Source: Verrucomicrobiaceae bacterium
GTDB taxonomy: Bacteria > Verrucomicrobiota > Verrucomicrobiia > Verrucomicrobiales > Akkermansiaceae
Direction of reading: 5' to 3'
DNA: 64,000 nucleotides
Assembly (NCBI GenBank): GCA_027485615.1
Contig: JAIXQS010000167.1
Coordinates: 1 to 64,000 of the forward strand
Shown one piece after another: positions 1,270 to 62,224 of the stretch. A program made the position numbers and the translations under genes. How positions within the stretch are numbered: position 1 is the stretch's first letter; the number at the start of each line of letters is the position of its first letter. The notes below the pieces were generated by a model that was given only the letters and a program-made list of their open reading frames with translations, did no database searches and had not been told where the DNA came from.

Positions 1270-2342
<1,073 letters not shown>

Positions 2343-2346
<4 letters not shown>

Positions 2347-3596
2347 GGCTCAACGGGAAGGGCGCGGGGAGCGGGCGGCTCCTCGACGAGCGAGGCTTTT
2401 AAAACGGGGGGCTCCTCGGGAACGGGCGTCGCCTTGAGCGGTTCAGGCTCATGGATGATGGCGGGTTTCACCATGACGGCTTTTGGCGGCGCGGGTTCCG
2501 GCGCGGGCGGCGGGGTTGGCTCGGGCACCGGGCGGGCTTTCGGCGTGACCTTGACCGGCTCGTCGGTGGGCGGGGTTTTCCGCATCCGGATCTCGACCCG
2601 GCGGTTGGGAGCCTGCGCGTCCGCATCGCCGTCCACGACCAGCGGCTGGGATTTCCCGAAGCCACGTGTGATGATGCGGTCGGGGTTCATGCGCATCGAG
2701 GAAACGAGGTATTGCTTCACCGATTCCGCGCGCTTGCGGGAGAGCTCGATGTTGAATTCCTCGCCGCCGATCAAGTCGCTGTGGCCTTCGATCCAGCAGT
2801 AGAGGTTCGGGTTTTTGTCGATCAGCAGGGCGAGCTTCATCAGCCCGACCTTGGCGCTCTCGCGGAGTTCGGTGCGGTTGAACTCGAAGAGCAGGTCGCT
2901 GGGCAGGAGGGTTTTCTTGGAAAGCAGGATGTTCGGAGGGAGGTCGAGCAGCTCGTCGAGCGATTCGATGCCGTCGAGCTTGCCGTTGTCCACCAGGCCG
3001 TTGTTTCCGCGCTTGATGAGGTCTTCGGTGAATTTTGTCATCTCGCCGTCATCCACCTGCACCGCGCCGGGATCGACCGTAATCTGCCCGACGGCCGCCG
3101 GTTTCAGCTCCGATTCCATCCGTCCGAAGTCCGGCAATTCCGAGTCGAGGTCGAAGTTCGAGGAAACCGTGGTGTCCGGGGCATCGAGTTCGCCTTCCGC
3201 CAGCGGGCTGGAAATTTTCAGGGCGTAAGCGGGATCGACCACGTCAGGCGCGATGTCGATCTCGGTGTCCTCGGGCAGCAGGTCGAGCAGGTCCGCTTCC
3301 TCCAGCAAGGCTGCGGATTCCAAGGGCGGGGTGATCGTTTCCTCGGGCGGTAATGCCTTGTCCGGTTCGTACGGCCTCACCTCCACTTGGCGGACGTTGA
3401 TTTGCCCGGTGGAAATTTCCTCCGGCTGTTGGATGCCAAGCGCGATTTTCACATGATCCAGCGCGAAGAACACCAGCACATGAAGCAGGATGGATACGAA
3501 CATGGCCGCCGTCGCCCAGAGCCCGAGGTGCTCGGGGCCGGGGAGGCGGTAGGTGCCTTCTTCGCGCGTGTCGCTCCAGCGATACCCTTGCTCCAT
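2343..3596 (-). CDS. membrane-anchored OmpA-domain protein with TonB-like features
   Basis: With the ATG at 3596 the product is 417 residues (an in-frame ATG at 3665 would add 23). It has a single N-terminal membrane helix of TonB/MotB type (WATAAMFVSILLHVLVFFAL), a long acidic linker rich in D, E and P, and an OmpA-like peptidoglycan-binding domain around residues 230-345 with the typical DLLFEFN, IEGHSD and NRRVEI segments. A Pro/Glu-rich tail of about 80 residues follows. It probably links the inner membrane to the cell wall. The order is the reverse of TonB, where the proline-rich spacer precedes the C-terminal domain. It is translationally coupled to rlmN and divergent from the histone-like gene. 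Confidence 0.75.
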
Positions 3597-3700
3597 GGGG
3601 CGTATGATAATCCATAGAAAGATGCTGGCAATACCGTAAAAAAATGCATATACGCGTATCGGCATCGAACGTGCTTAACGAACCCCATCCCCCTGAAACA

Positions 3701-3940
3701 ATGTCTGCCAAAAAAACTACCACGAAGGCAGCGGCCAAAAAAACCGCTGTCAAAGCCGCTGCAAAAAAAGTCGCAGCGAAGAAGGTGACGGCCAAAAAAG
3801 CTCCCGCCAAGAAGGCCGCCCTTTCCATCGAGTCTGTGGCCAAGGCCGCTTACCTGAACTACCGCCGTCGAGTGGAGAAGGGCCTTCCCGGGTGCCATGA
3901 TAGCGATTGGCTGGAGGCCGAGCGCTCGCTTGCAGATTGA
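3701..3940 (+). CDS. histone H1-like basic tail fused to a DUF2934 domain
   Basis: A 79-residue protein. Residues 1-40 are almost entirely Lys and Ala with Thr and Val (AAAKK and VAAKKV repeats), like the AKK-rich tails of bacterial histone H1-like proteins. Residues 41-79 (IESVAKAAYLNYRRR, then DSDWLEAERSL) match DUF2934. The ATG at 3701 was chosen because the basic tail begins there; the frame is open to an ATG at 3644. Family knowledge suggests the tail binds DNA without sequence preference, while the role of DUF2934 is unknown. It is divergently transcribed from the OmpA-like gene across about 100 bases. Confidence 0.8.
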   Translation: MSAKKTTTKAAAKKTAVKAAAKKVAAKKVTAKKAPAKKAALSIESVAKAAYLNYRRRVEKGLPGCHDSDWLEAERSLAD

Positions 3941-45943: not shown

Positions 45944-46666
45944 TCAGACGGTGAGGAACTCTTTGACGGTATCGTCGCTGAGTTCGGCCATGGTGCCGGA
46001 GGCGCAGACCGCTCCGCGCTCAAGGATGGCGAAGTCATCACCGAGCTCGCGGCAGAAATCCAGGTATTGCTCGACGAGCAGTATCGCCATTTTACCCTCC
46101 TCGCGGAGCATCCGGATCGCATCCCCGATCTGGTCGATGATGTTGGGTTGGATACCTTCGGTGGGTTCGTCAAGAATGAGGAGGTTGGGCTTTGTGAGGA
46201 GTGCGCGGCTGATCGCGAGCTGCTGCTGCCCGCCGGAGAGCATGCCTCCCTTGCGATGCAGGAACTCCTTTATGATGGGGAAAAGCGTGTAAACGCGGTC
46301 AATCTCCTCCTTATCCTTTTTCATGCCCCGCGCTTTCAGTCCGATGAAGAGATTCTCTTCTACGGTGAGGTGTGGAAAGATGTCACGGCCTTGGGGGACA
46401 TAACCGAGGCCTGCGCGCGCTCGGATTGCGGTGGGCATCGGGTGCACCGGCGCTCCGCCAAGATGGATACTGCCCGCATCGAGAGGCAGCAGGCCCATCA
46501 GCGCCTTGAGCGTGGTGCTTTTACCAACACCGTTCCTGCCCATGAGGCAGAACACCGTCTTCTCACGTATGGAAAACGTCACCCCGCGAAGGATCGCGCT
46601 GCCTCCGATGGAAACGCGCATGTTGTCGAGGGCTAGCCGATGTTCGGATGGGGCTGCGACTGTCAT
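45944..46666 (-). CDS. urtE: urea ABC transporter ATP-binding protein UrtE
   Basis: A 240-residue LivF-type ATPase: Walker A GRNGVGKST near residue 44, signature LSGGQQQ, Walker B LLILDEPTEGIQPN, plus the GYVPQGRDIFPHLTV segment. Energises urea import with UrtD. Starts 19 bases after the urtD stop. Its stop codon lies within the perfect palindrome CGTCTGATCAGACG (45937-45950). Confidence 0.94.
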   Translation of the reverse strand: MTVAAPSEHRLALDNMRVSIGGSAILRGVTFSIREKTVFCLMGRNGVGKSTTLKALMGLLPLDAGSIHLGGAPVHPMPTAIRARAGLGYVPQGRDIFPHLTVEENLFIGLKARGMKKDKEEIDRVYTLFPIIKEFLHRKGGMLSGGQQQLAISRALLTKPNLLILDEPTEGIQPNIIDQIGDAIRMLREEGKMAILLVEQYLDFCRELGDDFAILERGAVCASGTMAELSDDTVKEFLTV

Positions 46667-46685
46667 GGATTCGGATCGGGTGGGG

Positions 46686-47453
46686 TTAGGCGGCCTTGGA
46701 TTTGCGGCCGAGATAAACTTCGATGACGCGTTCGTCGGACTGGACTTTTTCGACAGGGCCTTCGGCAAGGACGTGGCCTTGGTGAAGCACGGTCACGGTG
46801 CGGCCTTGGGAGATCTGGCGGACGAACTCCATGTCGTGCTCGATGACCATGATCGTGTGTTTTCCGGCAAGGGACAGGAGCAGCTCGCCAGTACGGTAGG
46901 TTTCCTCGTCCGTCATGCCGGCGGCGGGTTCGTCGACGAGGAGAAGCCTGGCCTCCTGGGCGAGAAGCATGCCGATCTCGAGCCATTGCTTCTGGCCATG
47001 GGCGAGCTCGCCGGCCTTGCGGTATGCCTGGGTGTTGAGCTTGATCGTCTCCAGGATTTCCGCGAGACGTTCCTTCTGGGCGGCGGTGACACGCCCGAAA
47101 AGGCTGTGCCAGATGCTGCGCGGGCCGGCCATGGATAGGAGCAGGTTCTCAATGACCGTGTGGTCGCTGAAGACGGTGGGGGTCTGGAATTTCCGGCCTA
47201 TGCCCATCCGGTAGATCTCGTATTCATTGAGCTTGAGGAGATCGTGATCCGTGTCCCATTCGAGGTTGCCGCTGTCCGGACGTGTGCGTCCCGTGATGAT
47301 GTCGAGAAAGGTCGTTTTCCCGGCTCCGTTAGGCCCGATGACCGTGCGGAGCTCCCCTTCCGTCAGGTAGAAATTGAGATCGTTGATCGCCTTGAATCCG
47401 TCGAACGATTTGTTGATACCCTCGGCGGCGAGAAGGAATGGTTTTTTTTTCAT
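46686..47453 (-). CDS. urtD: urea ABC transporter ATP-binding protein UrtD
   Basis: A 255-residue LivG-type ATPase: Walker [10 protein letters not shown], the [11 protein letters not shown] motif, [15 protein letters not shown] in place of the usual signature, Walker [12 protein letters not shown], and H-loop VIEHDMEFV. The ATG overlaps the urtC stop (ATGA). The upstream in-frame extension is not family-like. Confidence 0.94.
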
Positions 47454-48589
47454 GGTTCGGTTACCTCCGCGTCCTGTTTGGTTGTGACGGGTTGCCTTGA
47501 GTTCGCACCCCTGTTTTTCATCTTCGCGATCAAAGCTCTGACCTGCGCCGGAATGCCGATGATGCCCTTGGGCATGAACATGACAACCAGCACGAAGGAA
47601 CCTCCCAGAATCAGGAGCCACATATCGGGATAAGCGCGTGTCGCCCAGCTCTTGAGCGCGTTCACGCTAACCGCGCCGAGAACCGGGCCGACCAATGTTC
47701 CGCGACCGCCCAGGGCAACCCAGACGACGGCTTCAAGGGAGCGCTCGGTGGTCATTTCTCCGGGATTGATGATGCCGACCTGCGGTACGTAAAGGGCTCC
47801 GGCGGCGGCGGCGATCATCGCGCAGAGGACGAAGATGAAGAGCTTGAAATTGGCGGTGGCGTATCCGGAGAAGAGCACGCGGTTTTCCGAATCGCGTATC
47901 GCGCGCTGGATCAGGCCGAAGCGGGTGGAGGTGAGCCATTTGCATCCGGCGACGACCGCGACCAGCAAGATGGCGGAGACGATGTAGAGGATGCGCTGGG
48001 TTGGGGCTTCGCGGAGGTTCGCGCCGAGCAATGTGCGGAAGTCGGTGAAGCCGTTGTTTCCGCCCATCAGCAGCTCGTTGCGGAAGAACAGGAGGGCGGC
48101 GGCGTAGGTGAGCGCCTGGGTGAGGATGGAGAAATAAACCCCCTTGATCCGAGATCTAAAGGCAAGGAAACCGAAGATCAGCGCGAGAATCCCGGGCACA
48201 AGGAACACCATCAGCATCGCGAAGGGAAAGGAATAGAAAGGCTGCCAGATGGCCGGCAGCTTGGTGTGTCCGAGGAATACCAGGAAATCGGGAAGATCGC
48301 TGTTATAGGATCCGAGTTTCCCGATCATCAGCATGAGATGCATGCCCATCATGTATCCGCCGAGGGTGAAAAACAGGGCCTGCCCGAGGCACAGCAAACC
48401 GGTGTATCCCCACAGTAGATCGATGGAAACCGCCATGATGGCGTAGCATAGGTATTTACCCCAGACGTTGAGCGTGAAGTCCTCGATCACACCGGCGACG
48501 TTCAACACCGGCATCACGATCACGAGAAAGACCGCCATGGCGATGAGCAGCGGCGTCCTGATTTTCGAAGCGGCGGGGGCTTTGTTCAT
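47450..48589 (-). CDS. urtC: urea ABC transporter permease UrtC
   Basis: A 379-residue LivM-type permease with about ten helices. Segments such as [41 protein letters not shown] and [20 protein letters not shown] are typical of UrtC. The ATG follows the urtB stop in a TAATG junction. Confidence 0.95.
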
Positions 48590-50319
48590 TAGTCTAGGCT
48601 GCGGGAGCGGGTTACGAAGAGTCCTTGCGGGCGCCACTGTAGGAAGAGGATGATTCCGAACAGGACGAGGATTTTGCCGATCACGGGATTGCCGAGATAC
48701 TGCTGGAGGCTTTGGTCGGCCATGCCGATCCCAAGCGCGCTGATCACCGTTCCAAGTATGTTCCCCACGCCGCCGACAACCACCGTCATGAAGGCATCAA
48801 CGATGTAGTTCTGACCGAGCGAGGGGCCGACGTTGGAGATCTGGGAGAGGAAAGCGCCCGCCAGCCCGGCCAGGCCGCAGCCGAAGGAGAATGTCAGCAT
48901 ATTCACCCGCTCGGTGCGGACTCCCATGCAAGCGGCCATGTTGCGGTTCTGCATCACGCTGCGGATCAGGAGACCCAGGGAGGTTTTGTTCAGCACCAGC
49001 CAGGTGGCGACAATGATCAGCAACGCGAAGCCGATCACGAAAAGGCGGTTCCAACCGAACACCACATCGTTCACCGTCCAGTTTCCCGAAAGCCAGAGAG
49101 GGCTGGATACCTGCACGTTGTTCGGGCCGAAGGTGAGCCGGAAAAGCTGCTGCATGACAAGTGACACGCCCCATGTCGCGAGCAGCGATTCAAGCGGCCT
49201 ACGGTAGAGAAACTGGATCACGGAGCGCTCCAGCAAAAGGCCTACCAAGGCCGCCACCAGGAAGCTGAGGGGCAGGGCAACCACGAAGTAGAGGCTCATC
49301 CCCGTCCCCGTGAGGCCGAGCCCGGGGATTTCGAAAGACTGCCCGAATGGCGAGAGGCGCAGGCCGCTGGCGAACACGTTTTGCACTACGTAGGTGGTGT
49401 ATGCCCCCACCGCGATGAACTCGCCGTGCGCCATGTTGATGATCCCCATCAGGCCGAAGGTAATCGCGAGCCCGATCGCCACGACAAGCAGGACGGATCC
49501 GGAGGAAACCCCGCGGAACAGCGTGCCTGCGGCGTTGATGCGGGAAATGTGCATCTCGATGCGGCTTACTGCGAGCAAGGCCGCTTTCTCCATCTCCTTG
49601 TCACCCGATTTCTTGGATTCGAGGGCGATGGTCTTGAGAAGATCGAAGGCTGGCAATGACCCGCGATTCCCAAGGAACTCAGCGGCAGCAAGGCGCTTTG
49701 CCTTGTCATCGGAGCGCAGATTGATGATCGCGATGGCCTGTTCGAGTGCCTTATTCGCTTTGCTGTTGGTCTCGATTTTCTGAAGTTCCAGAAGCCCCGG
49801 CAGCTTGTCCTGCCTCTGACCCACCGACGAGTTTTCGATGGCCTTGATCCGCTTTTCGACATCTGGATCGGCCAGTGCGGCGAGGTCGGAAACCTCCCTC
49901 ATCGCCTTGCGCAGCGACGAACTTGTGTCCGCCAGATCGAGTTCAAACTTCGTCACACCCACCTGGTTTCCCGTCCCATCGACCACCGGCGCATCGTCGG
50001 AAAGCTTCCGTATCGCGATCTTGCGGGTGCCCTCGATCTTATCCCCCATCAGAACAGGGACGATGCTGCCGTCCTCCGCCTCATACATGAAAATCAAGCC
50101 TTCTTTCCATTTGTCGAGCCAACCGACAATCTCCGGGCTGGGATTTTTTTTCAGATCAAGGACGACGGCGATCCTACCTTCCTCATCCGGCATCACGATG
50201 GCTGCCGCGATTTTTGACCTCACCGTTTCCTCCTGCGCCGCAGCCTTCTGGGAGGCGAAAACAAAAGCCCCGATGCCGGCAACCATGAGGACTTTTCTTA
50301 TGAGGCTGCCGCAGGACAT
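48589..50319 (-). CDS. urtB: urea ABC transporter permease UrtB with long periplasmic N-terminus
   Basis: A 576-residue protein. A signal-like first helix is followed by about 250 residues outside the membrane, including helical repeat-like segments ([28 protein letters not shown]). The LivH-type permease domain then runs from about 275 ([53 protein letters not shown]). Long N-termini are common in UrtB. First gene of the urtBCDE unit, directly behind a sigma-54-type promoter. Confidence 0.94.
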
Positions 50320-51878: not shown

Positions 51879-52370
51879 TCACTCCTTGAAGAGGCGGCGC
51901 TGGAAGGTGTCGCGAGCGGCGCGGCGGGAGAGGGATTGGATCTCGGCGATGAATTCGTTGACGTTCTCGAACTGCCGGTAAACGGAAACGTAACGGACAT
52001 AGGCCACCGGATCGATCTGGTGGAGCTTGTCCATCACCTTCGCGCCGATGGACGCGGAGGGCACTTCGCTCAGATGGTCCTTGTGGAGATCGGTCAAAAT
52101 CTCCTCCACTGCGCGGTCGAGCCGCTCCATGGAGACGGGGCGTTTCTCGCAGGCCTTGATCAGGCCGCCCATCAGTTTCTCGCGGTTCAGTGACTCCCGT
52201 GTGCCGTCCCGTTTCACCACCCGCAGCTCCGTGCGCTCGATCTGCTCGTAGGTCGTGTAGCGGTAGGAGCACTTCAGGCATTCCCTGCGCCGACGGATCG
52301 TCGTTCCGTCTTTCGAGGAGCGCGAGTCGAGCACTTTGTCTTTCTGGGAACCGCATTGGACGCAACGCAT
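51879..52370 (-). CDS. nrdR: transcriptional repressor NrdR
   Basis: A 163-residue repressor of ribonucleotide reductase genes. Zinc-ribbon cysteines are in MRCVQCGSQ and RECLKCSYRYTTYE, followed by the ATP-cone domain (VVKRDGTRESLNREKL, GGLIKACEKRPVS). It senses the ATP/dATP balance and binds NrdR boxes, none of which I identified here. Divergent from the glycosyltransferase-phosphoesterase gene across 241 bases. Confidence 0.97.
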   Translation of the reverse strand: MRCVQCGSQKDKVLDSRSSKDGTTIRRRRECLKCSYRYTTYEQIERTELRVVKRDGTRESLNREKLMGGLIKACEKRPVSMERLDRAVEEILTDLHKDHLSEVPSASIGAKVMDKLHQIDPVAYVRYVSVYRQFENVNEFIAEIQSLSRRAARDTFQRRLFKE

Positions 52371-52520
52371 GGAGGAAACGGGAAACTACTTGGCACAGCC
52401 TATTGGCACCCATGGCGTCGTCAAACCAAAAACTACGGCATATTTAGTAGTTGAATCCGGATAGTTCGGACACCTTGCCTGTTAGTTTTTGGAAAATCCG
52501 CACACATATCCAGCAAAAGT

Positions 52521-52580
52521 GTGACAAAACCGTCACCGCTTGGGGGGTGCGCCCGGAAGGTGCTTGGGATGTTTTATGAG
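52521..52580 (+). promoter_or_regulatory. Pho-type operator and promoter of the lipid-remodelling fusion gene
   Basis: Palindrome GTGAC-aaaacc-GTCAC (52521-52536), then 38 bases, then a TATGAG -10-like element (52575-52580). No good -35 element is visible, which fits an activator-dependent promoter. The same layout precedes pstS and pstC. Confidence 0.7.
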
Positions 52581-52611: not shown

Positions 52612-54621
52612 ATGAAAATCGACATAGTGACAGATACCTTCGCGCCGGATGTGAACGGGGTGGCCATGACCTTGGGTCGGCTCAGCGACGGATTGCGGAA
52701 CCGGGGGCACCGCGTCCACGTGATCCGCACCGGCGAGGGCAAGCGCGGCGAGACCATCGCCGCCTCGGTTCCGCTGCCGGGATACAAGGAGGTGCGCGTA
52801 GGGCTGCCCGGGCCGTTCAAGCTCCGCAAGCGCTGGATCCGCAAGCGTCCCGATGTCATCTACGTCGCCACGGAAAGCCCGCTGGGGAAATCCGCCGTGA
52901 AAGCGGCCAAAGCGCTCGGCATCCCGGTGGCAACCGGTTTTCACACGAACTTCCACGAGTATATGGAGCGCTACAGCCTCGGCGGCCTGCAGCCGATGGC
53001 GATGGCCTATCTGAAACGTTTCCACGGACGTGCGGACTGCACCTTGGCTCCTTCCCCGGAGCTGGTGGAGCGGCTCAAGGCCGAGGGTTTCGGAAACGTG
53101 CACCTGCTCGGGCGCGGCGTCGACACCTCGCTTTTCGATCCGAGGAAACGCTGCGAGAACCTGCGCGGTCAGTGGGGCGCGCGGGCGGCGGCTCCCGTCG
53201 CGATGGTGGTGGGCCGCGTGGCTGCCGAGAAAAACCTGGAACTTGCGATGATCGCTTTTTCCGAAATGCGCGCCGCCGTGCCGGACATGCGTTGCGTCGT
53301 CGTCGGCGACGGGCCGATCCGCGAAAAACTCGCCGCGAAGCATCCGTGGATTCACTTCGCGGGCGTGCAGACGGGTGAGGACTTGGCGAAGCATTACGCT
53401 TCCGCGGACATCCTGCTTTTCCCCAGCGAGACGGAGACCTTCGGAAACGTCGTGCTCGAGGGCATGGCAAGCGGTCTGGCGACGGTGGCCTATGATTATG
53501 CCGCCGCCGCCCGCTTCGTGGAGCACGGAGTCAACGGCCTGAAAGCGCCCAAGGGCGATTCCGCCGCTTTCCTCGAGCACGCCCATGCCGCTCTTGCCAT
53601 CCGTGCGGGTCACGGGATGCGCATCGCCGCCCGCGAACTGGCGGAGACGCAGGGCTGGGCAGCGGTCGTCGCCGAGTTCGAGGCGCGCCTCGAATCGATC
53701 ACCGATTCACAGGAAAGCCCCCGCAAGCCCTACTCGAAGCCGCCCCGCATCGGGAAACGCCTAAAGGTTTCCTACCGCACTGTTTTCCTCTCCGACATCC
53801 ACCTCGGCACGCTCGACAGCAAGGCGACGGAGGTCGTCGATTTCCTGAAACAAATCCGCTGCGAAAAGCTCATTCTAAACGGCGACATCATCGATGGCTG
53901 GGCGCTCAAGCGCGGTTCAAAATGGCTGCCGCGCCACAGCCGTGTGATCCGGAAAATCCTAAAAATGTCGGAGAAAGGGAAAACCGAGATCGTCTATCTC
54001 CGCGGCAACCACGACGACATCCTCGAGCGTTTCCTGCCGCTCGCCTTCGGGAAAATCCGTTTCACCAAGGAGCATATCCATGAGGCCGCGAACGGCACCC
54101 GCTACCTCGTCGTCCACGGCGACGGCTTCGACAGCGTCTCCACGAACCACAAGTGGCTCGCCTCCCTCGGCGCGGTCGGATACGACACCCTCCTCCACAT
54201 CAACCGCTGGTACAACCGCTGGCGGGCATGGTGCGGAAAAGAGTATTTCTCCCTCAGCAAACGCGTGAAGGCGAAGGTGAAATCCGCCGTCAGCTTCATC
54301 GACAAATACGAGTCCCTGCTCCAGGAACTCGCCGTCCACAAGGGCTGCGACGGCATCATCTGCGGCCACATCCATACGCCCGAGGACAAGCGCGTCGGCG
54401 ACATCCACTACCTGAACTCCGGCGATTGGGTGGAGAGCCTCACCGCCATCGTCGAGCACCACGACGGGCGCATGGAGCTGATCCATTTCGAGGAATTCAT
54501 GGCGCAGTGCCACATCAAAAGCATCGAGCGTGCGAAGGCCGCCGAGCGCGAGGTGGAACCCGTTTCCACCGACAGGCGGATCTCGTCGGAAACGGAAATC
54601 CTGCTGGCCGAACCTTTGTGA
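52612..54621 (+). CDS. GT4 glycosyltransferase-metallophosphatase fusion (Agt-PlcP-like)
   Basis: A 669-residue fusion. Residues 1-365 are a GT4 glycosyltransferase (DTFAPDVNGVAMTLGRLSDGL at the start, ATGFHTNFHEYM, the E-x7-E element in FPSETETFGNVVLEGMASG). Residues about 386-640 are a calcineurin-like phosphoesterase with SDIHLG, NGDIIDGW, RGNHDD, VVHGDGFD and CGHIHTPE, plus NSGDWVESLTAIVEH. The latter is the PlcP pattern (often annotated as UDP-2,3-diacylglucosamine pyrophosphatase). PlcP releases diacylglycerol from phospholipids and Agt glycosylates it, so one polypeptide could convert phospholipid to glycolipid. Immediately upstream of pstS and behind a Pho-type operator. An LpxH-like role is the alternative. 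Confidence 0.82.
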   Translation: MKIDIVTDTFAPDVNGVAMTLGRLSDGLRNRGHRVHVIRTGEGKRGETIAASVPLPGYKEVRVGLPGPFKLRKRWIRKRPDVIYVATESPLGKSAVKAAKALGIPVATGFHTNFHEYMERYSLGGLQPMAMAYLKRFHGRADCTLAPSPELVERLKAEGFGNVHLLGRGVDTSLFDPRKRCENLRGQWGARAAAPVAMVVGRVAAEKNLELAMIAFSEMRAAVPDMRCVVVGDGPIREKLAAKHPWIHFAGVQTGEDLAKHYASADILLFPSETETFGNVVLEGMASGLATVAYDYAAAARFVEHGVNGLKAPKGDSAAFLEHAHAALAIRAGHGMRIAARELAETQGWAAVVAEFEARLESITDSQESPRKPYSKPPRIGKRLKVSYRTVFLSDIHLGTLDSKATEVVDFLKQIRCEKLILNGDIIDGWALKRGSKWLPRHSRVIRKILKMSEKGKTEIVYLRGNHDDILERFLPLAFGKIRFTKEHIHEAANGTRYLVVHGDGFDSVSTNHKWLASLGAVGYDTLLHINRWYNRWRAWCGKEYFSLSKRVKAKVKSAVSFIDKYESLLQELAVHKGCDGIICGHIHTPEDKRVGDIHYLNSGDWVESLTAIVEHHDGRMELIHFEEFMAQCHIKSIERAKAAEREVEPVSTDRRISSETEILLAEPL

Positions 54622-54678
54622 CGAATCCGTCGCACAAGTCCTTTCCGCGTCCGCGACAAGATCGGGGATTGATATAAG
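54618..54678 (+). promoter_or_regulatory. Pho-type operator and promoter of pstS
   Basis: GTGAC-gaatcc-GTCGC (54618-54633; one mismatch in the palindrome), then 39 bases, then TATAAG (54673-54678). It overlaps the last codons of the fusion gene and lies 94 bases before the pstS ATG. Confidence 0.65.
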
Positions 54679-54727: not shown

Positions 54728-55690
54728 ATGAGAACAAAATTGACCTTGATGATGATGGGCACGGCGCTCGCCGCCATGAACCTGAACGCGGAGGAATCCC
54801 ACATCGACCCCGCGATCCCGCATTACCAAACCGTCAGCGGCGTTTCCGGAAACCTGAACTCGATCGGTTCCGACACCCTCAACAACCTCATGACCCTGTG
54901 GGCGGAAGGTTTCAAGAAGTCCTACCCGAACGTGAACGTCCAGATCGAGGGCAAGGGCAGCTCCACCGCACCGCCGGCCCTGATCGAGGGCACCGCCCAG
55001 CTTGGTCCGATGTCACGCCCGATGAAGGCGGAGGAGATCGATGCCTTTGAGAAAAAATTCGGCTATAAGCCGACGGAAGTGAACGTCGCCGTGGATGCGC
55101 TCGCGGTCTTCGCCCACAAGGACAACCCGCTGAAGGGCATGTCGATGGAGCAGGTGGACGCCATTTTCTCCTCCACCCGCAAAAAAGGCGGCGCTGACAT
55201 CACGGAGTGGGGTCAGCTCGGTCTCGACGCATGGAAAGGCCGCGCGATCTCGCTGTTCGGGCGTAACTCCGCCTCCGGCACCTACGGCTTCTTCCAGGAA
55301 CACGCGCTGGACAAAGGCGATTTCAAGACCTCGGTGAAAGAGCAGCCCGGCTCCTCCGCCGTGGTGCAAGGCGTCGGCGGCGACATCTATGCCATCGGCT
55401 ACTCTGGCATCGGCTACAAGACCTCAGGTGTCCGCGCCCTGCCGCTTTCCAACGATGGCGGCGAGTTTTTCGAGGCCACCTATGCAAACGCCCTGTCCGG
55501 AGATTACCCGCTGGCTCGTTTCCTCATCGTCTACGTGAACAAGAAACCCGGCGAGCCGCTCGACAAGCTCACCCTTGAGTTCCTCAAGTTCGTTCTCTCG
55601 AAGCAAGGCCAGATGATTGTGGAAAAGGACAATTACTACCCGATGCCCGCCGAACTCGCCGCCGAGACGGTCGAAGGCCTCTCCAAGTAG
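54728..55690 (+). CDS. pstS: phosphate ABC transporter substrate-binding protein
   Basis: A 320-residue periplasmic phosphate-binding protein with signal peptide (MRTKLTLMMMGTALAAMNLNA). GSDTLNNLMTLWAEGF, the IEGKGSSTAPPALIEGTAQ segment (phosphate-binding Ser/Thr), GPMSRPMK and GRNSASGTYGFF match the PstS family. First gene of the pst unit, with its own Pho-type promoter. Confidence 0.94.
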   Translation: MRTKLTLMMMGTALAAMNLNAEESHIDPAIPHYQTVSGVSGNLNSIGSDTLNNLMTLWAEGFKKSYPNVNVQIEGKGSSTAPPALIEGTAQLGPMSRPMKAEEIDAFEKKFGYKPTEVNVAVDALAVFAHKDNPLKGMSMEQVDAIFSSTRKKGGADITEWGQLGLDAWKGRAISLFGRNSASGTYGFFQEHALDKGDFKTSVKEQPGSSAVVQGVGGDIYAIGYSGIGYKTSGVRALPLSNDGGEFFEATYANALSGDYPLARFLIVYVNKKPGEPLDKLTLEFLKFVLSKQGQMIVEKDNYYPMPAELAAETVEGLSK

Positions 55691-55749
55691 TTTCGTTGTC
55701 GGAAGGTCTCGAAATCGCGGGGGCGGTGCCGGAAGGTTCCACCCGTTTG

Positions 55750-55809
55750 GTGACGGCTCTGTCACATTCCGCGCTTTGCCCAGGGCGGGAGTTGGTTCAC
55801 AAATACGAG
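55750..55809 (+). promoter_or_regulatory. Pho-type operator and promoter of pstC
   Basis: GTGAC-ggctct-GTCAC (55750-55765), then 38 bases, then TACGAG (55804-55809), 49 bases before the pstC ATG. It lies between pstS and pstC, so the permease genes can be transcribed apart from pstS. Confidence 0.7.
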
Positions 55810-55858: not shown

Positions 55859-58120
55859 ATGCTCCCCGAGCCAACCAACAATCCGGACCCGAGGCGGTTT
55901 GATGTCTCCAGGTCGACCCTTTGGTTCGACCGTTTCATGGGCTGGGCGATCCGTTTCGGCGGCATCGGCGTGATCATCGCGGTGTTCGGGATTTTCTGGT
56001 TCATCGGCAAGGAAGTCATCCCGCTGTTCAAGCCGGGCGCGGTGGTGAAAGCCGCTTCCGCGACCTCAGGGACCGCTCCTGTCATCCTCGGCGTGGATGA
56101 GTGGGGGGAAATGCCGTTTTTCTACTCCGGCGGCAACAAGGTGGTCTTCGTCGACGGGGAAACCGGTGAGCGGAGCGAGCTGGAGGTGCCGGGCTTGGAA
56201 GGGCTGAAAATCACCGCGAGCTCCTATGATCCGCTGAAACGCCGCATCTCGCTGGGCTTGGAGGACGGGCGGGTGGGTTCTTTCATCGTCGGCTACGAGC
56301 GGCTTTTCGAAAACGGCGAGGCGAAGGGCGTGAAGCCATCCATCGCCGTAGAGCCGTGGTTCGTGCTGAAAAACGCAGGCGGCCCCGTTACGGCGATCAG
56401 TTACGGCGACGCCGGCTCCTCGCGCATCATGGCGGTGAAAACCGCCGAGGGCAAAGTCGAGGTGGTCCGTCTCGGCCTGAAAGGCGGACTGATCGGCGGC
56501 AAGAAACTCTCGGTGCTTGCCGAGGTGGACATCACGCCGGAGATCAGCGGCGAGGTGGTGTTTCTCCGCGCTTCGCAGAACGGCCAGATAGTGCTGGTGG
56601 CGGACAAGGCCGGCAAGGTTTCGTATTTTCTCGCCGATAGCTCGGGAGTCACGAAGCGGCAGGACTTCACACCCTTCGGCGGTGTCGGTCTGGCGCAGAT
56701 GGATTTCCTTTTCGGCGGCGTTTCCGCGATCCTCACCGCCGAGGACGGCACCCAGGAACAGTGGAGCCTTTTCCGCCAAACCGAGGACGCCGAGCGGCTC
56801 TTCGGCATGACCAAGGATTTCCCCGATGTCGGCGACGGCCGGATCGCCTTCGCCAAGAGCCAGCGCAACCGCACTTTCCTCACCGGCGCGGGACGCGAGC
56901 TTTCGATCCGCCACAGCACCTCCGGCGCGGTGCGCTGGGAGGGGTCAGTGGACATTGATCCCGCCGCCGCGATCCTCGACGCGAAGGGCGAATCGTTCTG
57001 GATCGCTTCGGCGGCGGGCGAGGCGCGCAAGTTCGAGATCAAGGATCATCATCCTGACGCGGGCGTGCAGGCGTTCTTCGGGAAAGTCTGGTATGAGGGC
57101 GGAGCGGGGCCGGTTTTCCAATGGCAGTCCACCGGCGGCTCGGATGATTTCGAGGCGAAGCTTTCCCTGATGCCCCTGATCTTCGGCTCGCTGAAAGGCA
57201 CCGCCTACGCGCTGCTTTTCGCCATCCCCGTCGCGCTGCTGGCCGCCGTTTTCTCCGCGGCGTTCCTGCCGGCTGATGTGAAACGGATCGTCAAGCCGAC
57301 CATGGAGATCATGTCCTCGCTGCCCTCCGTGGTGCTCGGTTTCCTGGCCGGCCTGTGGCTCGCGCCCATACTTTCCGACCGCGTGCCTTCGGTGATGATG
57401 CTTGTTATACTCGTCCCGCTTTCCGCCCTGCTCGTCGGTTACGTCTGGTGCCGCATGCCTCTCGCTTTCCGCAACCGCTTCGAGGGCGGCAATGAGTGGA
57501 TGATCGTGATTCCTTTCCTCGCCCTCGCCGCGATGATCGGCTGGTGGTCGGGGCCCTTGGTGGAGAAAATGTTCTTCGTTTACACCGAGCCGGGCACCGG
57601 GAAAAAGATCGCGGACTTCAGCCTCTGGTGGCCGCAGGCGACAGGGACGAGCTTCCAGCAACGCAACTCGCTCGTTCTCGGTTTCATCATGGGCTTCGCG
57701 GTGATCCCCGTCATTTTCACGATCGCCGAGGACGCCCTCTCCAACGTCCCGAAAAATCTAACAGCCGCCGCCTCCGCGCTCGGCGCCAACCGCTGGCAGG
57801 TCGTGTGGACGGTGATGCTGCCCGTCGCCTCCTCCGGCATTTTCTCCTCGCTGATGATCGGCTTCGGACGCGCCGTCGGCGAAACGATGATCATGGTCAT
57901 GGCCACCGGCAACACGCCGATCATGGAGTGGAATCTTTTCAACGGCATGCGCACTCTCTCCGCGAACCTCGCCGTTGAGCTGCCCGAGGCGCCAGTCGGA
58001 TCCACCCACTACCGCACGCTTTTCCTTGGCGCGATCGTCCTTTTCGCCATGACATTTGTGCTCAACACCATCGCGGAAATCCTCCGCCAGCGCCTGCGCG
58101 AGAAAAACAAGCTCGTCTGA
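55859..58120 (+). CDS. pstC: phosphate ABC transporter permease PstC, large form
   Basis: A 753-residue protein. One N-terminal helix (about 28-52), then about 370 residues outside the membrane with repeated beta strands (FVDGETGERSELEVPG, VSYFLADSS, EQWSLFRQT), suggestive of a beta-propeller-like domain. A PstC permease domain follows from about 435 (GTAYALLFAIPVALLAAVF, SSLPSVVLGFLAGLWLAP, ALGANRWQVVWTVMLPVASSG, GRAVGETMIMVMATGN). Ordinary PstC is about 300-320 residues; the long form is known in several Gram-negative groups. Confidence 0.92.
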   Translation: MLPEPTNNPDPRRFDVSRSTLWFDRFMGWAIRFGGIGVIIAVFGIFWFIGKEVIPLFKPGAVVKAASATSGTAPVILGVDEWGEMPFFYSGGNKVVFVDGETGERSELEVPGLEGLKITASSYDPLKRRISLGLEDGRVGSFIVGYERLFENGEAKGVKPSIAVEPWFVLKNAGGPVTAISYGDAGSSRIMAVKTAEGKVEVVRLGLKGGLIGGKKLSVLAEVDITPEISGEVVFLRASQNGQIVLVADKAGKVSYFLADSSGVTKRQDFTPFGGVGLAQMDFLFGGVSAILTAEDGTQEQWSLFRQTEDAERLFGMTKDFPDVGDGRIAFAKSQRNRTFLTGAGRELSIRHSTSGAVRWEGSVDIDPAAAILDAKGESFWIASAAGEARKFEIKDHHPDAGVQAFFGKVWYEGGAGPVFQWQSTGGSDDFEAKLSLMPLIFGSLKGTAYALLFAIPVALLAAVFSAAFLPADVKRIVKPTMEIMSSLPSVVLGFLAGLWLAPILSDRVPSVMMLVILVPLSALLVGYVWCRMPLAFRNRFEGGNEWMIVIPFLALAAMIGWWSGPLVEKMFFVYTEPGTGKKIADFSLWWPQATGTSFQQRNSLVLGFIMGFAVIPVIFTIAEDALSNVPKNLTAAASALGANRWQVVWTVMLPVASSGIFSSLMIGFGRAVGETMIMVMATGNTPIMEWNLFNGMRTLSANLAVELPEAPVGSTHYRTLFLGAIVLFAMTFVLNTIAEILRQRLREKNKLV

Positions 58121-58123
58121 CCC

Positions 58124-59755
58124 ATGCCCGCCGAAATCGAAAACTCGAGGTTCGCGACCACCGGAAGGTCACGCAAGGGCGAGCCGCTCGTCTGGCTCAC
58201 CGCCGCGGGGTTGGCGGTCGGCGTCATCATGGCGCTCGGGCTGTTCCTCCTCATCCTCGTGAAAGGCGCGTCGTCCTTCTGGCCGAAGCGGATCGAGCTT
58301 TTCGAGGTAAAGCGCGGCGAGACCTCGGAAATGATCGCCGGTTATGTCACACAGACGCAGGAGCGGAAGGATGCGGAGGGCAAGCCCGTCGAGGAACTCC
58401 AGATTTTCCGCGGCAACAAGGACGTCAGCGGCGAGGCGTTCATCTACGTGGATGTCCGCGACATCGTCAGCCGCAGCGCTCCGGAAAAATTGCTGCTCTT
58501 CGAGCGCCTCACCTATGGCCCGGCCATCGGCGAGGCGGTCGCCATCGAGACCAAGGACGGCCGTACCGAGGCCGCGGCCGCGGATTTCATGGGGAAACTC
58601 GACGCCCTCATTTCCAAAAGCGAAGAGATCCGGGCGAAGGCGCTGTATATCGAGCGCAAACAGATCGGCAAAATCAGCGCGGAGATCGAGGAGATCGGCT
58701 TCGACCTCAAAGCGGATCGCATCACCGAGGCCAACGCCGCCGCGCGCAAGGCTGAGCTGGAGAAACAGTTCGCCACCCTCAAGGCCGAGGCCGACGGACT
58801 CAACGACGGCATGGCCGCCACCAACATCATCTACAGGATCGCCGATGGCCGAGAAAGACCGCTGCCTTCCGGCCAGTTGCTTAGCGTTTACACGCCCAAC
58901 AGCACCGGATTTTTCGGACGTCTCGGCGAGGCGCTGCGCCGCGCCTGGCATTTCCTCAAAGAGGATCCCCGCGAGGCGAACACCGAGGGCGGCGTTTTCC
59001 CCGCCATCTTCGGCACCGTGGTGATGACCCTGGTGATGAGCCTTTTCGTGACACCCTTCGGGGTCATCGCCGCGGTCTATCTGCGTGAATACGCCAAGCA
59101 GGGACTCATGGTCCGCATCGTCCGCATCTGTGTGAACAACCTCGCCGGCGTGCCCTCCATCGTCTTCGGCGTCTTCGGTCTCGCGTTCTTCGTGTATTTC
59201 GTCGGCGCGGGGATTGATGATACTTTCTACTCCGAGAAACTCCCCACGCCCACCTTCGGCACGCCCGGCATCCTCTGGGCCTCGCTGACCCTTGCGCTGC
59301 TGACGTTGCCGGTCGTCATCGTGGCGACGGAAGAAGCCCTCTCCGCCGTGCCGCGCGGTGTCCGCGAGGCGGCTCTCGCATGCGGCGCCTCGAAATGGCA
59401 GACGATCCAGCGTATCGTGCTCCCCGCCTCCCTTCCCGGGATTCTAACAGGCGTCATCCTCGCGATGGCCCGCGGCGCAGGCGAGGTCGCGCCGCTCATG
59501 CTCGTCGGCGTGGTGAAGCTCGCGCCGACCCTGCCCATCGATGGCATCGCCCCCTTCATCCACGCCGAGCGCAAGTTCATGCACCTCGGCTTCCATATCT
59601 ACGACCTCGGCTTCCAATCCCCCGACGCCGAAGCCGCCAAGCCCTTTGTTTACGCCACCGCCCTGCTCCTAATCCTCGTCGTCGTAACCCTCAACCTCAC
59701 CGCCATCCTCATCCGCAACCGCCTGAAAAAACGCTTCGCCGTGAGCAGCTTTTGA
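58124..59755 (+). CDS. pstA: phosphate ABC transporter permease PstA, large form
   Basis: A 543-residue permease. An N-terminal helix is followed by about 250 residues with a charged, coiled-coil-like stretch (EEIRAKALYIERKQIGKI onward), then the PstA permease domain (GTVVMTLVMSLFVTPFGVIAAVYLREYA, NNLAGVPSIVFGVFGLAF, ALACGASKWQTIQRIVLPAS, GAGEVAPLMLVG). Starts 3 bases after the pstC stop. The extra N-terminal domain mirrors that of PstC; the two may interact. Confidence 0.93.
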   Translation: MPAEIENSRFATTGRSRKGEPLVWLTAAGLAVGVIMALGLFLLILVKGASSFWPKRIELFEVKRGETSEMIAGYVTQTQERKDAEGKPVEELQIFRGNKDVSGEAFIYVDVRDIVSRSAPEKLLLFERLTYGPAIGEAVAIETKDGRTEAAAADFMGKLDALISKSEEIRAKALYIERKQIGKISAEIEEIGFDLKADRITEANAAARKAELEKQFATLKAEADGLNDGMAATNIIYRIADGRERPLPSGQLLSVYTPNSTGFFGRLGEALRRAWHFLKEDPREANTEGGVFPAIFGTVVMTLVMSLFVTPFGVIAAVYLREYAKQGLMVRIVRICVNNLAGVPSIVFGVFGLAFFVYFVGAGIDDTFYSEKLPTPTFGTPGILWASLTLALLTLPVVIVATEEALSAVPRGVREAALACGASKWQTIQRIVLPASLPGILTGVILAMARGAGEVAPLMLVGVVKLAPTLPIDGIAPFIHAERKFMHLGFHIYDLGFQSPDAEAAKPFVYATALLLILVVVTLNLTAILIRNRLKKRFAVSSF

Positions 59756-59854
59756 GAAGCACGAAGCACGAAGCATAAAATCCAAAATGAAAAAGTTTCG
59801 ATCAAAACTCTTCCTTTAGACATCAGTGCCTAGAATTTAGAATTTTTTATCTCC

Positions 59855-60646
59855 ATGTCTGCTTCATCTCAAGTGCCCGAAAAAGCACCCCGCCCCGATT
59901 TCATCCGGGTGGAGGACTTCAGTTTCCACTACGGTGAGAAGCAGGCGATCTTCGGCATCGACATGGCGATCCCCGAGAACGAGATCACCGCCCTCATCGG
60001 CCCCTCCGGCTGCGGGAAATCCACCCTGCTGCGGAACATGAACCGCATGAACGACCTCATCGACGGCGTCCGCCACGAAGGCGACATCCGGCTCGACGGC
60101 GTGAGCCTCTACGATCCCTCCGTCGAGGTCATTTCGCTGCGCAAGCGCGTCGGCATGGTGTTCCAGAAATACAATCCCTTCGCGAAGTCGATCTACGAGA
60201 ATGTCGTCTTCAGCCTCCGCGTCGCGGGGCGCAACGGCAAACGCGAACTCGATGAGACGGTCGAGCGCGCCCTCCGGGACTCGGCACTCTGGGACGAGGT
60301 GAAAGACCGCCTGCATGACAGCGCATTCGGCCTTTCCGGCGGGCAGCAGCAACGCCTCTGCATCGCCCGCGCCATCGCGAACCGCCCGGAAATCCTCCTG
60401 ATGGACGAGCCTTGCGCCGCGCTAGACCCGCTCGCGACGCTGAAGATCGAGGAACTCATCACCACCCTCAAGAACCGCTACACCATCGTCATCGTGACCC
60501 ACAATATGGAGCAGGCCACGCGTTGCTCGGACCGCACCGCGTTCCTCTACATGGGCAAGCTCATCGAATACGGAAAGACGGTGCAGATTTTCGAGAACCC
60601 CAAACAGGAGCAGACCGAGTCCTACATCACCGGAAGGTTCAGCTGA
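59855..60646 (+). CDS. pstB: phosphate ABC transporter ATP-binding protein PstB, copy 1
   Basis: A 263-residue ATPase: Walker [10 protein letters not shown] near residue 50, Q-loop VFQKYNPF, signature LSGGQQQR, Walker [13 protein letters not shown], and H-loop VTHNMEQ. The C-terminal ESYITGRFS is the PstB ending. The 99-base gap after pstA is AT-rich, unlike the rest of the operon, and may carry a promoter. Confidence 0.96.
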
Positions 60647-60647
60647 A

Positions 60648-61421
60648 ATGGAAAACCATCCTCCAATCCCCGCCATCGAGGTGCGCGACGTCGATTTCTC
60701 CTACGGGAAATCCCGCGCCATCAAGGGCGTGACCCTGGACATCGCCCGCAACCAGGTCACCGCTTTCATCGGCCCCTCCGGCTGCGGGAAATCCACCCTG
60801 CTCCGCTGCTTCAACCGGATGAATGATTTCATCCCCGGCGCGAAGGTCACCAAGGGCGAGATCCTCATCAACGGAGTCGAGATCCACGACAAGGAGGTCG
60901 ATGGCGTGGAGCTACGCCGCCGCGTCGGCATGGTGTTCCAGAAATCCAACCCCTTCCCACGCAGCATCTATGAGAACGTCGCCTACGGCCCGCGCATCCT
61001 GGGCGAGAAGAACAAGGTGAACCTCGACGCCATCGTCGAAAAATCCCTGCGCGGTGCCGCGCTCTGGGACGAGGTGAAAGACCGCCTCAACGAAAGCGCC
61101 TACGGCCTTTCCGGCGGGCAGCAGCAGCGGCTCTGCATCGCCCGCACCACCGCCGTCGATCCCTCCATCATCCTGATGGACGAGCCCTGCTCCGCCCTCG
61201 ATCCCATCGCCACCGCCCGCGTTGAGGAACTTATCTACGACCTCAAGCGCGATTACACCATCGTCATCGTCACCCATAACATGCAGCAGGCGACGCGGGT
61301 TTCCGATATGACCGCTTTCTTTTACCTCGGCGAGCTGATAGAATACGACCGAACCTCGAAAATGTTTTCCAACCCGTCCTTGCCGCAGACGGAGCAATAC
61401 ATCACGGGCCGGTTTGGCTGA
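60648..61421 (+). CDS. pstB: phosphate ABC transporter ATP-binding protein PstB, copy 2
   Basis: A 257-residue second PstB in tandem, 1 base after the first. All ATPase motifs are intact ([57 protein letters not shown], and the ending EQYITGRFG). It resembles the classic PstB more closely (PFPRSIYEN) than copy 1 (PFAKSIYEN). The two may form a heterodimer or serve different conditions. Confidence 0.96.
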
Positions 61422-61522
61422 AACACTTTTAATCGGGGACATGTATGCAATCACTATGAATCCAGGCCTTTTAGCGAACCATCGATTGGCTCGCCCATAG
61501 CTTATGCGAGAAGCAAATAACC

Positions 61523-62224
61523 ATGAACAGTTCTCCCCATATCCTCCGTGATTTCGACCAAGCCATGTCCTCGCTCAAGGGCGAGGTGCTCGGAATGGCC
61601 GCCCTCACCCGCCTGAACCTCGAGCGGGCGATCCGCGCCCTCATGGAGCGCAACGCCGAACTAGCCAACTCGGTAATAGCCGATGACGACGAGATTGATG
61701 AGGCCGAGCGCGTCATCGACCAGCTCGGCATGGATATACTGATGAAATACCACCCCATGGCCACGGACCTGCGTCTCGTCGTTTCCTCGATGAAAATCTC
61801 CATGAACCTGGAGCGCATGGCTGACCATGCGGTGAACATCGCCAAGCGTGCCAAGAAAATCTCCGCCGCCCCGGAGCTCAGCGAGGTGAACCTCATCGAG
61901 CCGCTCTACACCCTCGCCGACCACCTCCTGCGCGACGCGATCTCCTCCTACAGCGACGGCAACGGCCCCCTCGGCGCTTCCTTGCACACGCGCGACAAGG
62001 AGTTGGACAAAATGCACAAGCAGACCACCGCTCATTTCTCCTCCCGCATCGAGGAAACCCAGGGCCGCTGCCAAGAATACCTGCACCTCATTTTCATCGT
62101 CCGGTCGCTCGAGCGCGTCGGCGACCTCGCCGCCAACATCGGCGAGGACGCCGTTTACCTCGAGCACGCGAAAGACCTCCGCCACAAGAGCAAGCTTGAG
62201 CGCGAGATGCCCGATGACGACTGA
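61523..62224 (+). CDS. phoU: phosphate signalling protein PhoU
   Basis: A 233-residue protein of two three-helix PhoU repeats (metal-binding E/D-x3-D/E pattern in ERMADHAVNIAKRA and ERVGDLAANIGEDAV). In characterised systems PhoU links Pst to the PhoR/PhoB two-component system, holding it inactive when phosphate is plentiful. phoR and phoB are not in this window. Confidence 0.96.
   Translation: MNSSPHILRDFDQAMSSLKGEVLGMAALTRLNLERAIRALMERNAELANSVIADDDEIDEAERVIDQLGMDILMKYHPMATDLRLVVSSMKISMNLERMADHAVNIAKRAKKISAAPELSEVNLIEPLYTLADHLLRDAISSYSDGNGPLGASLHTRDKELDKMHKQTTAHFSSRIEETQGRCQEYLHLIFIVRSLERVGDLAANIGEDAVYLEHAKDLRHKSKLEREMPDDD

Follow-up and report, generated by a model that had tools for sequence, protein, structure and literature searches.

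A glycosyltransferase–PlcP fusion with a Pho-box-like upstream site in Verrucomicrobiota: a probable one-polypeptide enzyme of phospholipid-to-glycolipid remodelling

Results

One reading frame joins a glycosyltransferase to a phosphoesterase

The window, that is, the whole 64,000-nucleotide stretch of a Verrucomicrobiaceae genome that was analysed, carries a long plus-strand gene immediately ahead of a set of phosphate-transport genes:

52612..54621, plus strand: fused glycosyltransferase-PlcP gene, 669 aa and a stop, ATG start, no stop inside (ORF list, Pfam, conserved fusion)
52612..53706, plus strand: GT4 (GT-B fold) glycosyltransferase domain, Agt-like, aa 1-365 (Pfam, identity, fold search)
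53689..53766, plus strand: interdomain linker, about aa 360-385, ~23 aa
53767..54507, plus strand: PlcP-type metallophosphoesterase domain, aa 386-632 (Pfam, identity to PlcP references)
54728..55690, plus strand: pstS, phosphate-binding protein, 106 bp after the fusion (TIGR02136, 263 bits, above cut-off)
55859..62224, plus strand: pstC, pstA, pstB, pstB and phoU (TIGR02138, just below cut-off; TIGR00974; TIGR00972 twice; TIGR02135)

A sequence-only reading had described this frame as a GT4 glycosyltransferase joined to a calcineurin-like phosphoesterase before pstS, and the reading frame, Pfam and the four phosphoesterase motifs all bear this out. Pfam placed PF13439 at aa 14-173 (105.8 bits), PF13692 at aa 195-327 (97.3 bits) and PF00149 (Metallophos) at aa 389-590 (47.3 bits), each above its curated cut-off. 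AlphaFold2 folded the two domains with confidence (mean pLDDT 88.4), pLDDT falling below 50 only in the linker (375-378) and at the C-terminus (659-669). The pTM of 0.65 means that the placement of one domain relative to the other is not fixed by the model.

The same reading had proposed looking for the fusion elsewhere in the phylum. In a survey of 388 Verrucomicrobiota genomes, it was present across one family, that of the window, in genera g1 and g18-g23. Carriers that are not metagenome-assembled are Haloferula sp. BvORR071, Rubritalea marina DSM 17716, Persicirhabdus sediminis and Luteolibacter marinus. About 28 of the 37 genomes of the window's own genus encode it as one frame; the exceptions include a copy with an in-frame TAG (L011) and two others broken by contig ends or an internal gap. 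In genus g18, 14 of the 24 sampled genomes had a match and 10 had none. An assembly artefact or a chance joining of the halves is ruled out, since the one-frame fusion recurs in many independently assembled genomes. Four apparent further fusions (G277, G059, G185 and G214) proved to be separate genes that share one frame with a stop in between. In the literature searched (subscription papers and preprints lay outside its scope), the portions available always present PlcP and Agt as separate genes and make no mention of a fused protein.

Several neighbouring features were recorded. On the minus strand, nrdR (51879-52370) is divergent from the fusion, and the 241-bp gap between them contains a Pho-box-like site. 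Further upstream, at 45944-50319, also on the minus strand, lie branched-chain/urea-type ABC transporter genes with two ATPases and two permeases. PstC (753 aa) and PstA (543 aa), encoded at 55859-59755, have long additional N-terminal regions ahead of their permease domains.

The phosphoesterase half is of the PlcP type

The four metal-ligand motifs of the phosphoesterase half are as follows:

53791..53808, plus strand: SDIHLG, from aa 394; D395 and H397 invariant in 75/75 fused proteins
53878..53901, plus strand: NGDIIDGW, from aa 423; D425 invariant in 75/75
54001..54018, plus strand: RGNHDD, from aa 464; N466, H467 and D468 invariant in 75/75
54361..54384, plus strand: CGHIHTPE, from aa 584; H586 and H588 invariant in 75/75

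The PlcP metal ligands DxH, GD, GNHD and GHxH are thus complete in the window protein and unchanged throughout the fused set. Identity was 41% to Sinorhizobium meliloti PlcP, 45% to the Pseudomonas aeruginosa PlcP whose gene is paired with agt1, and 50% to a Parabacteroides PlcP homologue. The S. meliloti reference we take to be SMc00171, from the adjoining AHL synthase and LuxR-type genes (sinI/sinR). The P. aeruginosa reference was assigned by gene order to the PA3219-PA3218 pair given in PMC8528852.

It is extremely improbable that this half is instead LpxH, the UDP-2,3-diacylglucosamine hydrolase of lipid A synthesis, with an LPS glycosyltransferase as its partner. That identity would fit the usual database annotation of PlcP homologues and a weak hit to the NCBIfam LpxH model, but the 35.9 bits obtained lie far under the cut-off of 134, and the best score genome-wide was 38.5, so that the profile search found no LpxH above cut-off in the window's own genome. 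The genome contains LpxI (159 bits), on which it appears to rely. Against E. coli LpxH the identity was only 25% over 120 aa, well below that to PlcP, and the window protein has GNHD where LpxH has GNRD. A fold search with the whole model returned glycosyltransferase folds only, so the phosphoesterase half was folded and searched alone; LpxH structures were then the closest solved folds (Z 16.9, 202 aligned, rmsd 4.3). This demonstrates a common calcineurin-like fold, not a common function, and the substrates of the two would differ. A tree of this half, in which some branches are long, sets it with PlcP rather than LpxH, and a phosphate-type regulatory site at the gene (see below) also speaks against a role in lipid A synthesis. 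On these grounds LpxH was rejected, and by homology the phosphoesterase half is a PlcP-type enzyme, as the sequence-only reading had named it. That reading had also warned that PlcP is commonly misannotated; in the plasmid records H1-H29, PlcP homologues are indeed nearly always labelled UDP-2,3-diacylglucosamine diphosphatase.

The glycosyltransferase half is Agt-like

Three motifs hold the residues expected of an active GT4 enzyme:

52936..52962, plus strand: GFHTNFHEY, aa 109-117, active-site His111; kept in 72/75 fused proteins
53212..53235, plus strand: GRVAAEKN, with R202 (75/75) and K207 (74/75)
53434..53460, plus strand: EX7E motif ETFGNVVLE, with E275 (71/75) and E283 (75/75)

All five catalytic residues (H111, R202, K207, E275 and E283) are intact in the window protein. 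This half has the GT-B fold, with MshA (Z 37) and PimA (Z 33) as structural neighbours. It shares 31% identity with P. aeruginosa Agt1 and 39% with a Sphingomonas glycosyltransferase adjoining plcP, and it groups with Agt1 and other plcP-linked GT4 enzymes in a tree that was built without a tested outgroup GT4 family. Judged by sequence, it probably falls in the GT4 group that contains the Agt proteins next to plcP, in agreement with the Agt-like naming proposed earlier. The nearest NCBIfam models, N-acetylglucosaminyl-PG synthase and monoglucosyl-DAG synthase, both scoring below cut-off, describe lipid glycosyltransferases. An identity of 31% to a tested Agt points to the group but is too low to settle the acceptor or the sugar.

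One might suppose that this half glycosylates a lipid other than diacylglycerol, for example phosphatidylglycerol in the manner of a GlcN-PG synthase, and that the two halves work in separate steps. GT4 enzymes do vary in their acceptors, the phosphatidylinositol mannosyltransferase PimA is among the structural neighbours, and the best-scoring NCBIfam model was N-acetylglucosaminyl-PG synthase. Its score was 132.7 bits, far below its cut-off of 480, but the same model also ranks first for Agt1 itself, which makes MGDG (PMC8528852). Likely kinship to that enzyme, the tight association with PlcP (a producer of diacylglycerol), and the occurrence in related clusters of a lipid kinase together with an enzyme resembling diglucosyl-DAG synthase all argue for diacylglycerol as the acceptor. 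We therefore regard a different acceptor as rather unlikely.

A palindromic site links the fusion to phosphate genes

Pho-box-like sites precede the fusion and two of the pst genes:

52520..52537, no strand assigned: Pho-box-like site TGTGACAAAACCGTCACC, 91 nt before the fusion start
54617..54634, no strand assigned: Pho-box-like site before pstS, overlapping the fusion stop codon, 110 nt before pstS
55749..55766, no strand assigned: Pho-box-like site between pstS and pstC, 109 nt before pstC

A TGTGAC-N6-GTCACA palindrome is common to the three upstream regions. In a scan of the whole genome, exact GTGACN6GTCRC occurred 16 times in the forward and 22 times in the reverse direction, compared with two hits in each for the reversed pattern used as control; one of the exact matches lay just before a PhoB/PhoR-type gene pair (TIGR02154, 227 bits, below cut-off). 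In 28 of 30 phoB orthologues from the family, the highest-scoring match sat 62-66 nt before the start (one at 71), with a mean score of 11.2 of the 12 fixed positions versus 7.5 in shuffles. Ahead of the fusion gene, a score of at least 10/12 was reached at 57 of 91 loci, as against about 0.8% of shuffles, the sites at fused loci lying mostly 75-99 nt before the start; these counts are taken over related loci and hence are not independent.

The core also fits an E. coli-type Pho box as an 11-bp repeat at 14 of 19 positions, a level reached about once per shuffle, so a scan of the window alone for the E. coli-type box was not significant. Because the motif forms a palindrome and departs from the E. 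coli box at 5 of the 19 positions, PhoB is named here as its presumed ligand.

Conserved linkage to pst proved untenable as an argument for phosphate control: among fused loci, pst genes are near the fusion only in the window, L010, L038 and L045, and most have none nearby. The case thus depends on conservation of the site across genomes and on the sites at phoBR, pstS and pstC, not on the neighbourhood. The phosphate link drawn by the sequence-only reading consequently stands, on the palindrome common to the fusion, pstS, pstC and phoBR, and the fusion gene is very probably a phosphate-regulon member.

Two other palindromes in the same genome deserve mention. One, at L213:2106-2121 (contig C111), is Pho-box-like and lies 53 nt before a gene at 2174-3895 that has no NCBIfam match and could be another gene of that regulon. 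The other, a second exact palindrome at L212:8690-8705 (contig C179), is 5 kb from phoBR and adjoins the end of a gene resembling a phosphodiester glycosidase.

The fusion probably derives from an adjacent gene pair

Beyond the family, the halves are for the most part encoded separately. At 43 Verrucomicrobiota loci with split halves, they always stand in the order glycosyltransferase then PlcP and on one strand. From the glycosyltransferase stop to the PlcP domain the distance is at most 270 nt in 28 of the 43, and 1-2.4 kb in the other 15. Five of the gapped loci were read from sequence: the one-gene gaps (L101, L115) hold lipid kinases, and the two-gene gaps (L099, L104, L111) hold a UgtP/MGDG-synthase-like glycosyltransferase followed by a lipid kinase. 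In NCBIfam searches of L101 and L111, a YegS-type lipid kinase scored above cut-off, and the match to the diglucosyl-diacylglycerol synthase model (159 bits) fell below its cut-off. The presence of kinase and glycolipid-synthase-like genes suggests that this neighbourhood is concerned with diacylglycerol. These and similar loci of the Opitutaceae type show a lipid kinase, and sometimes a diglucosyl-diacylglycerol-synthase-like glycosyltransferase, between separate agt and plcP genes.

The trees of the two halves are congruent. The family's fusions cluster in both (SH-aLRT 90 and 99), both halves are orthologous to those of the split pairs, and two changes between the split and fused states are enough to account for both trees; the ancestral state is a gene pair. 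The second change concerns L155 (G040:C366:2856-4967), a fusion from another family of the order, known from one incomplete genome (83%). It groups with split loci (support 93 and 98) and has a Pro/Ala-rich linker region of 82 residues, compared with 18-27 in the rest. By these signs it is apparently independent of the family's fusion.

The glycosyltransferase half has decayed repeatedly

Within the family, the glycosyltransferase half has been lost or damaged in several ways while PlcP was kept. It has been deleted in frame in L036, L075/L076, L273 and L275, leaving a short start (e.g. MESEIVTDINPPEVNEVA) joined to PlcP; it is gone from L276 with no clear scar; L074/L274 carry two deletions inside it; and in the L033, L055 and L072 group 23 residues beside the active site are missing and E275 is replaced by D. 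In L149 and L150 (G285 and G153, genus g18) the frame of 643-649 aa persists and PlcP is intact, but the glycosyltransferase motifs are lost. These two glycosyltransferase halves share 34% identity, and their dN ratio (glycosyltransferase to PlcP) is 3.7, versus about 1.5 in intact pairs. In L272/L277 (G446) two overlapping genes occupy different frames, which represents either a true splitting of the fusion or a frameshift introduced in assembly. At least four such losses or decays are required to explain the tree; strongly supported branches alone force two.

The degenerate half of L149/L150 may have turned into a docking domain. That the glycosyltransferase half is already non-catalytic in general, serving docking or regulation while PlcP alone works, is a reading to which these two proteins and the shortened L033/L055/L072 group lend some colour; it is nevertheless very improbable for the window protein, which has every catalytic residue in a half that keeps 66% mean identity across the family.

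BtaA was found in 4 of 7 genomes with glycosyltransferase loss versus 4 of 43 (Fisher p 0.0085, a value that ignores kinship). No BtaA was found in the two g18 genomes with a degraded glycosyltransferase half or in the window's own genome. Its presence in several of the loss genomes suggests that these may use diacylglycerol for betaine lipid; as a replacement partner after glycosyltransferase loss, BtaA is only a lead.

These decays bear on whether diacylglycerol is channelled from one domain to the other, as the sequence-only reading proposed, and whether selection favoured the joined form because the PlcP site could hand it on to the glycosyltransferase site of the same polypeptide. The fusion has been retained family-wide and made at least twice, both reactions require membrane-bound diacylglycerol, and the short linker varies little in length (18-27 aa in all but one of the 75 fused proteins). 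However, linker sequence is unconserved (25% identity to that of the window) and modelled with low confidence, the second fusion tolerates a far longer one, diacylglycerol is able to diffuse in the membrane, and one genome again reads as two genes. Since PlcP was kept through repeated loss of its partner, an obligatory hand-over is disfavoured. Channelling is thus an unlikely explanation, and the earlier proposal of it gains no support from a short, variable linker and an unfixed domain arrangement. A bolder version, in which the single polypeptide performs the complete phospholipid-to-glycolipid conversion by hand-over, as the first such enzyme, and some lineages later discarded the glycosyltransferase and redirected diacylglycerol, e.g. 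to betaine lipids, is slightly less likely again.

Discussion

Taken together, our analysis points, with good though not full confidence, to a bifunctional lipid-remodelling enzyme made under phosphate starvation, which combines a PlcP step with a GT4 step, is under PhoB control and arose by gene joining. The C-terminal PlcP half would cut the phosphate head group from phosphatidylethanolamine or phosphatidylglycerol to leave diacylglycerol, and the N-terminal GT4 half would add a sugar to it, with UDP-glucose or UDP-glucuronic acid as the probable donor. PhoB is predicted to induce the fusion gene along with pst and phoBR. A head-group remover, a sugar transferase and the site of phosphate-starvation genes in combination suggest that the gene probably saves phosphate by rebuilding the membrane. 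The fusion presumably originated when adjacent, co-transcribed agt and plcP genes lost the intervening stop at the base of the family. Its benefit most likely lies in equal production of the two activities and their co-localisation at the inner membrane, rather than in true channelling. To speak of a one-gene pathway, as was done earlier, is an overstatement while product and sugar are only predicted and pst genes do not accompany the fusion at most loci.

If this reading is correct, Pho-controlled lipid remodelling extends to a widespread family of Verrucomicrobiota, for which the palindrome defines a candidate Pho box. By homology, many genes labelled UDP-2,3-diacylglucosamine diphosphatase in these genomes are plcP. 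As a single transferable gene of natural origin, the fusion would let phospholipid-to-glycolipid remodelling be tested in E. coli with both steps introduced together, and the lineages that lost the glycosyltransferase constitute a natural experiment for comparing the fate of diacylglycerol.

The closest relatives of the fusion are the split agt/plcP pairs of other Verrucomicrobiota (e.g. L078, L079, L084 and L160), which have the same gene order and strand, are sister to it in both trees and in some cases lie beside pst or phoU, as in the window. They differ in having two frames, many of which overlap or lie within a few bases of each other. In the Opitutaceae and their relatives, a lipid kinase, and often a second glycosyltransferase, frequently separates the halves. 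Among characterized systems, PMC8528852, PMC4796936 and PMC9239053 describe PlcP-Agt of P. aeruginosa (PA3219-PA3218), S. meliloti, SAR11 and Methylosinus, which belong to the same two protein families and, as here, combine the PlcP metal motifs, an adjoining GT4 and an upstream Pho box. As described there, those systems consist of two genes, plcP then agt, whereas the fusion is one polypeptide with the glycosyltransferase first; its Pho-box-like site, unlike theirs, is palindromic and family-specific. In phosphate-limited Desulfovibrio alaskensis G20, formation of MGDG and GADG requires the Agt homologue Dde_3613, which the part of PMC5193443 available describes as a glycosyltransferase only. 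Set beside these systems, the fusion looks like a way of making two known enzymes together on one tether, and hence like a variant of an established pathway.
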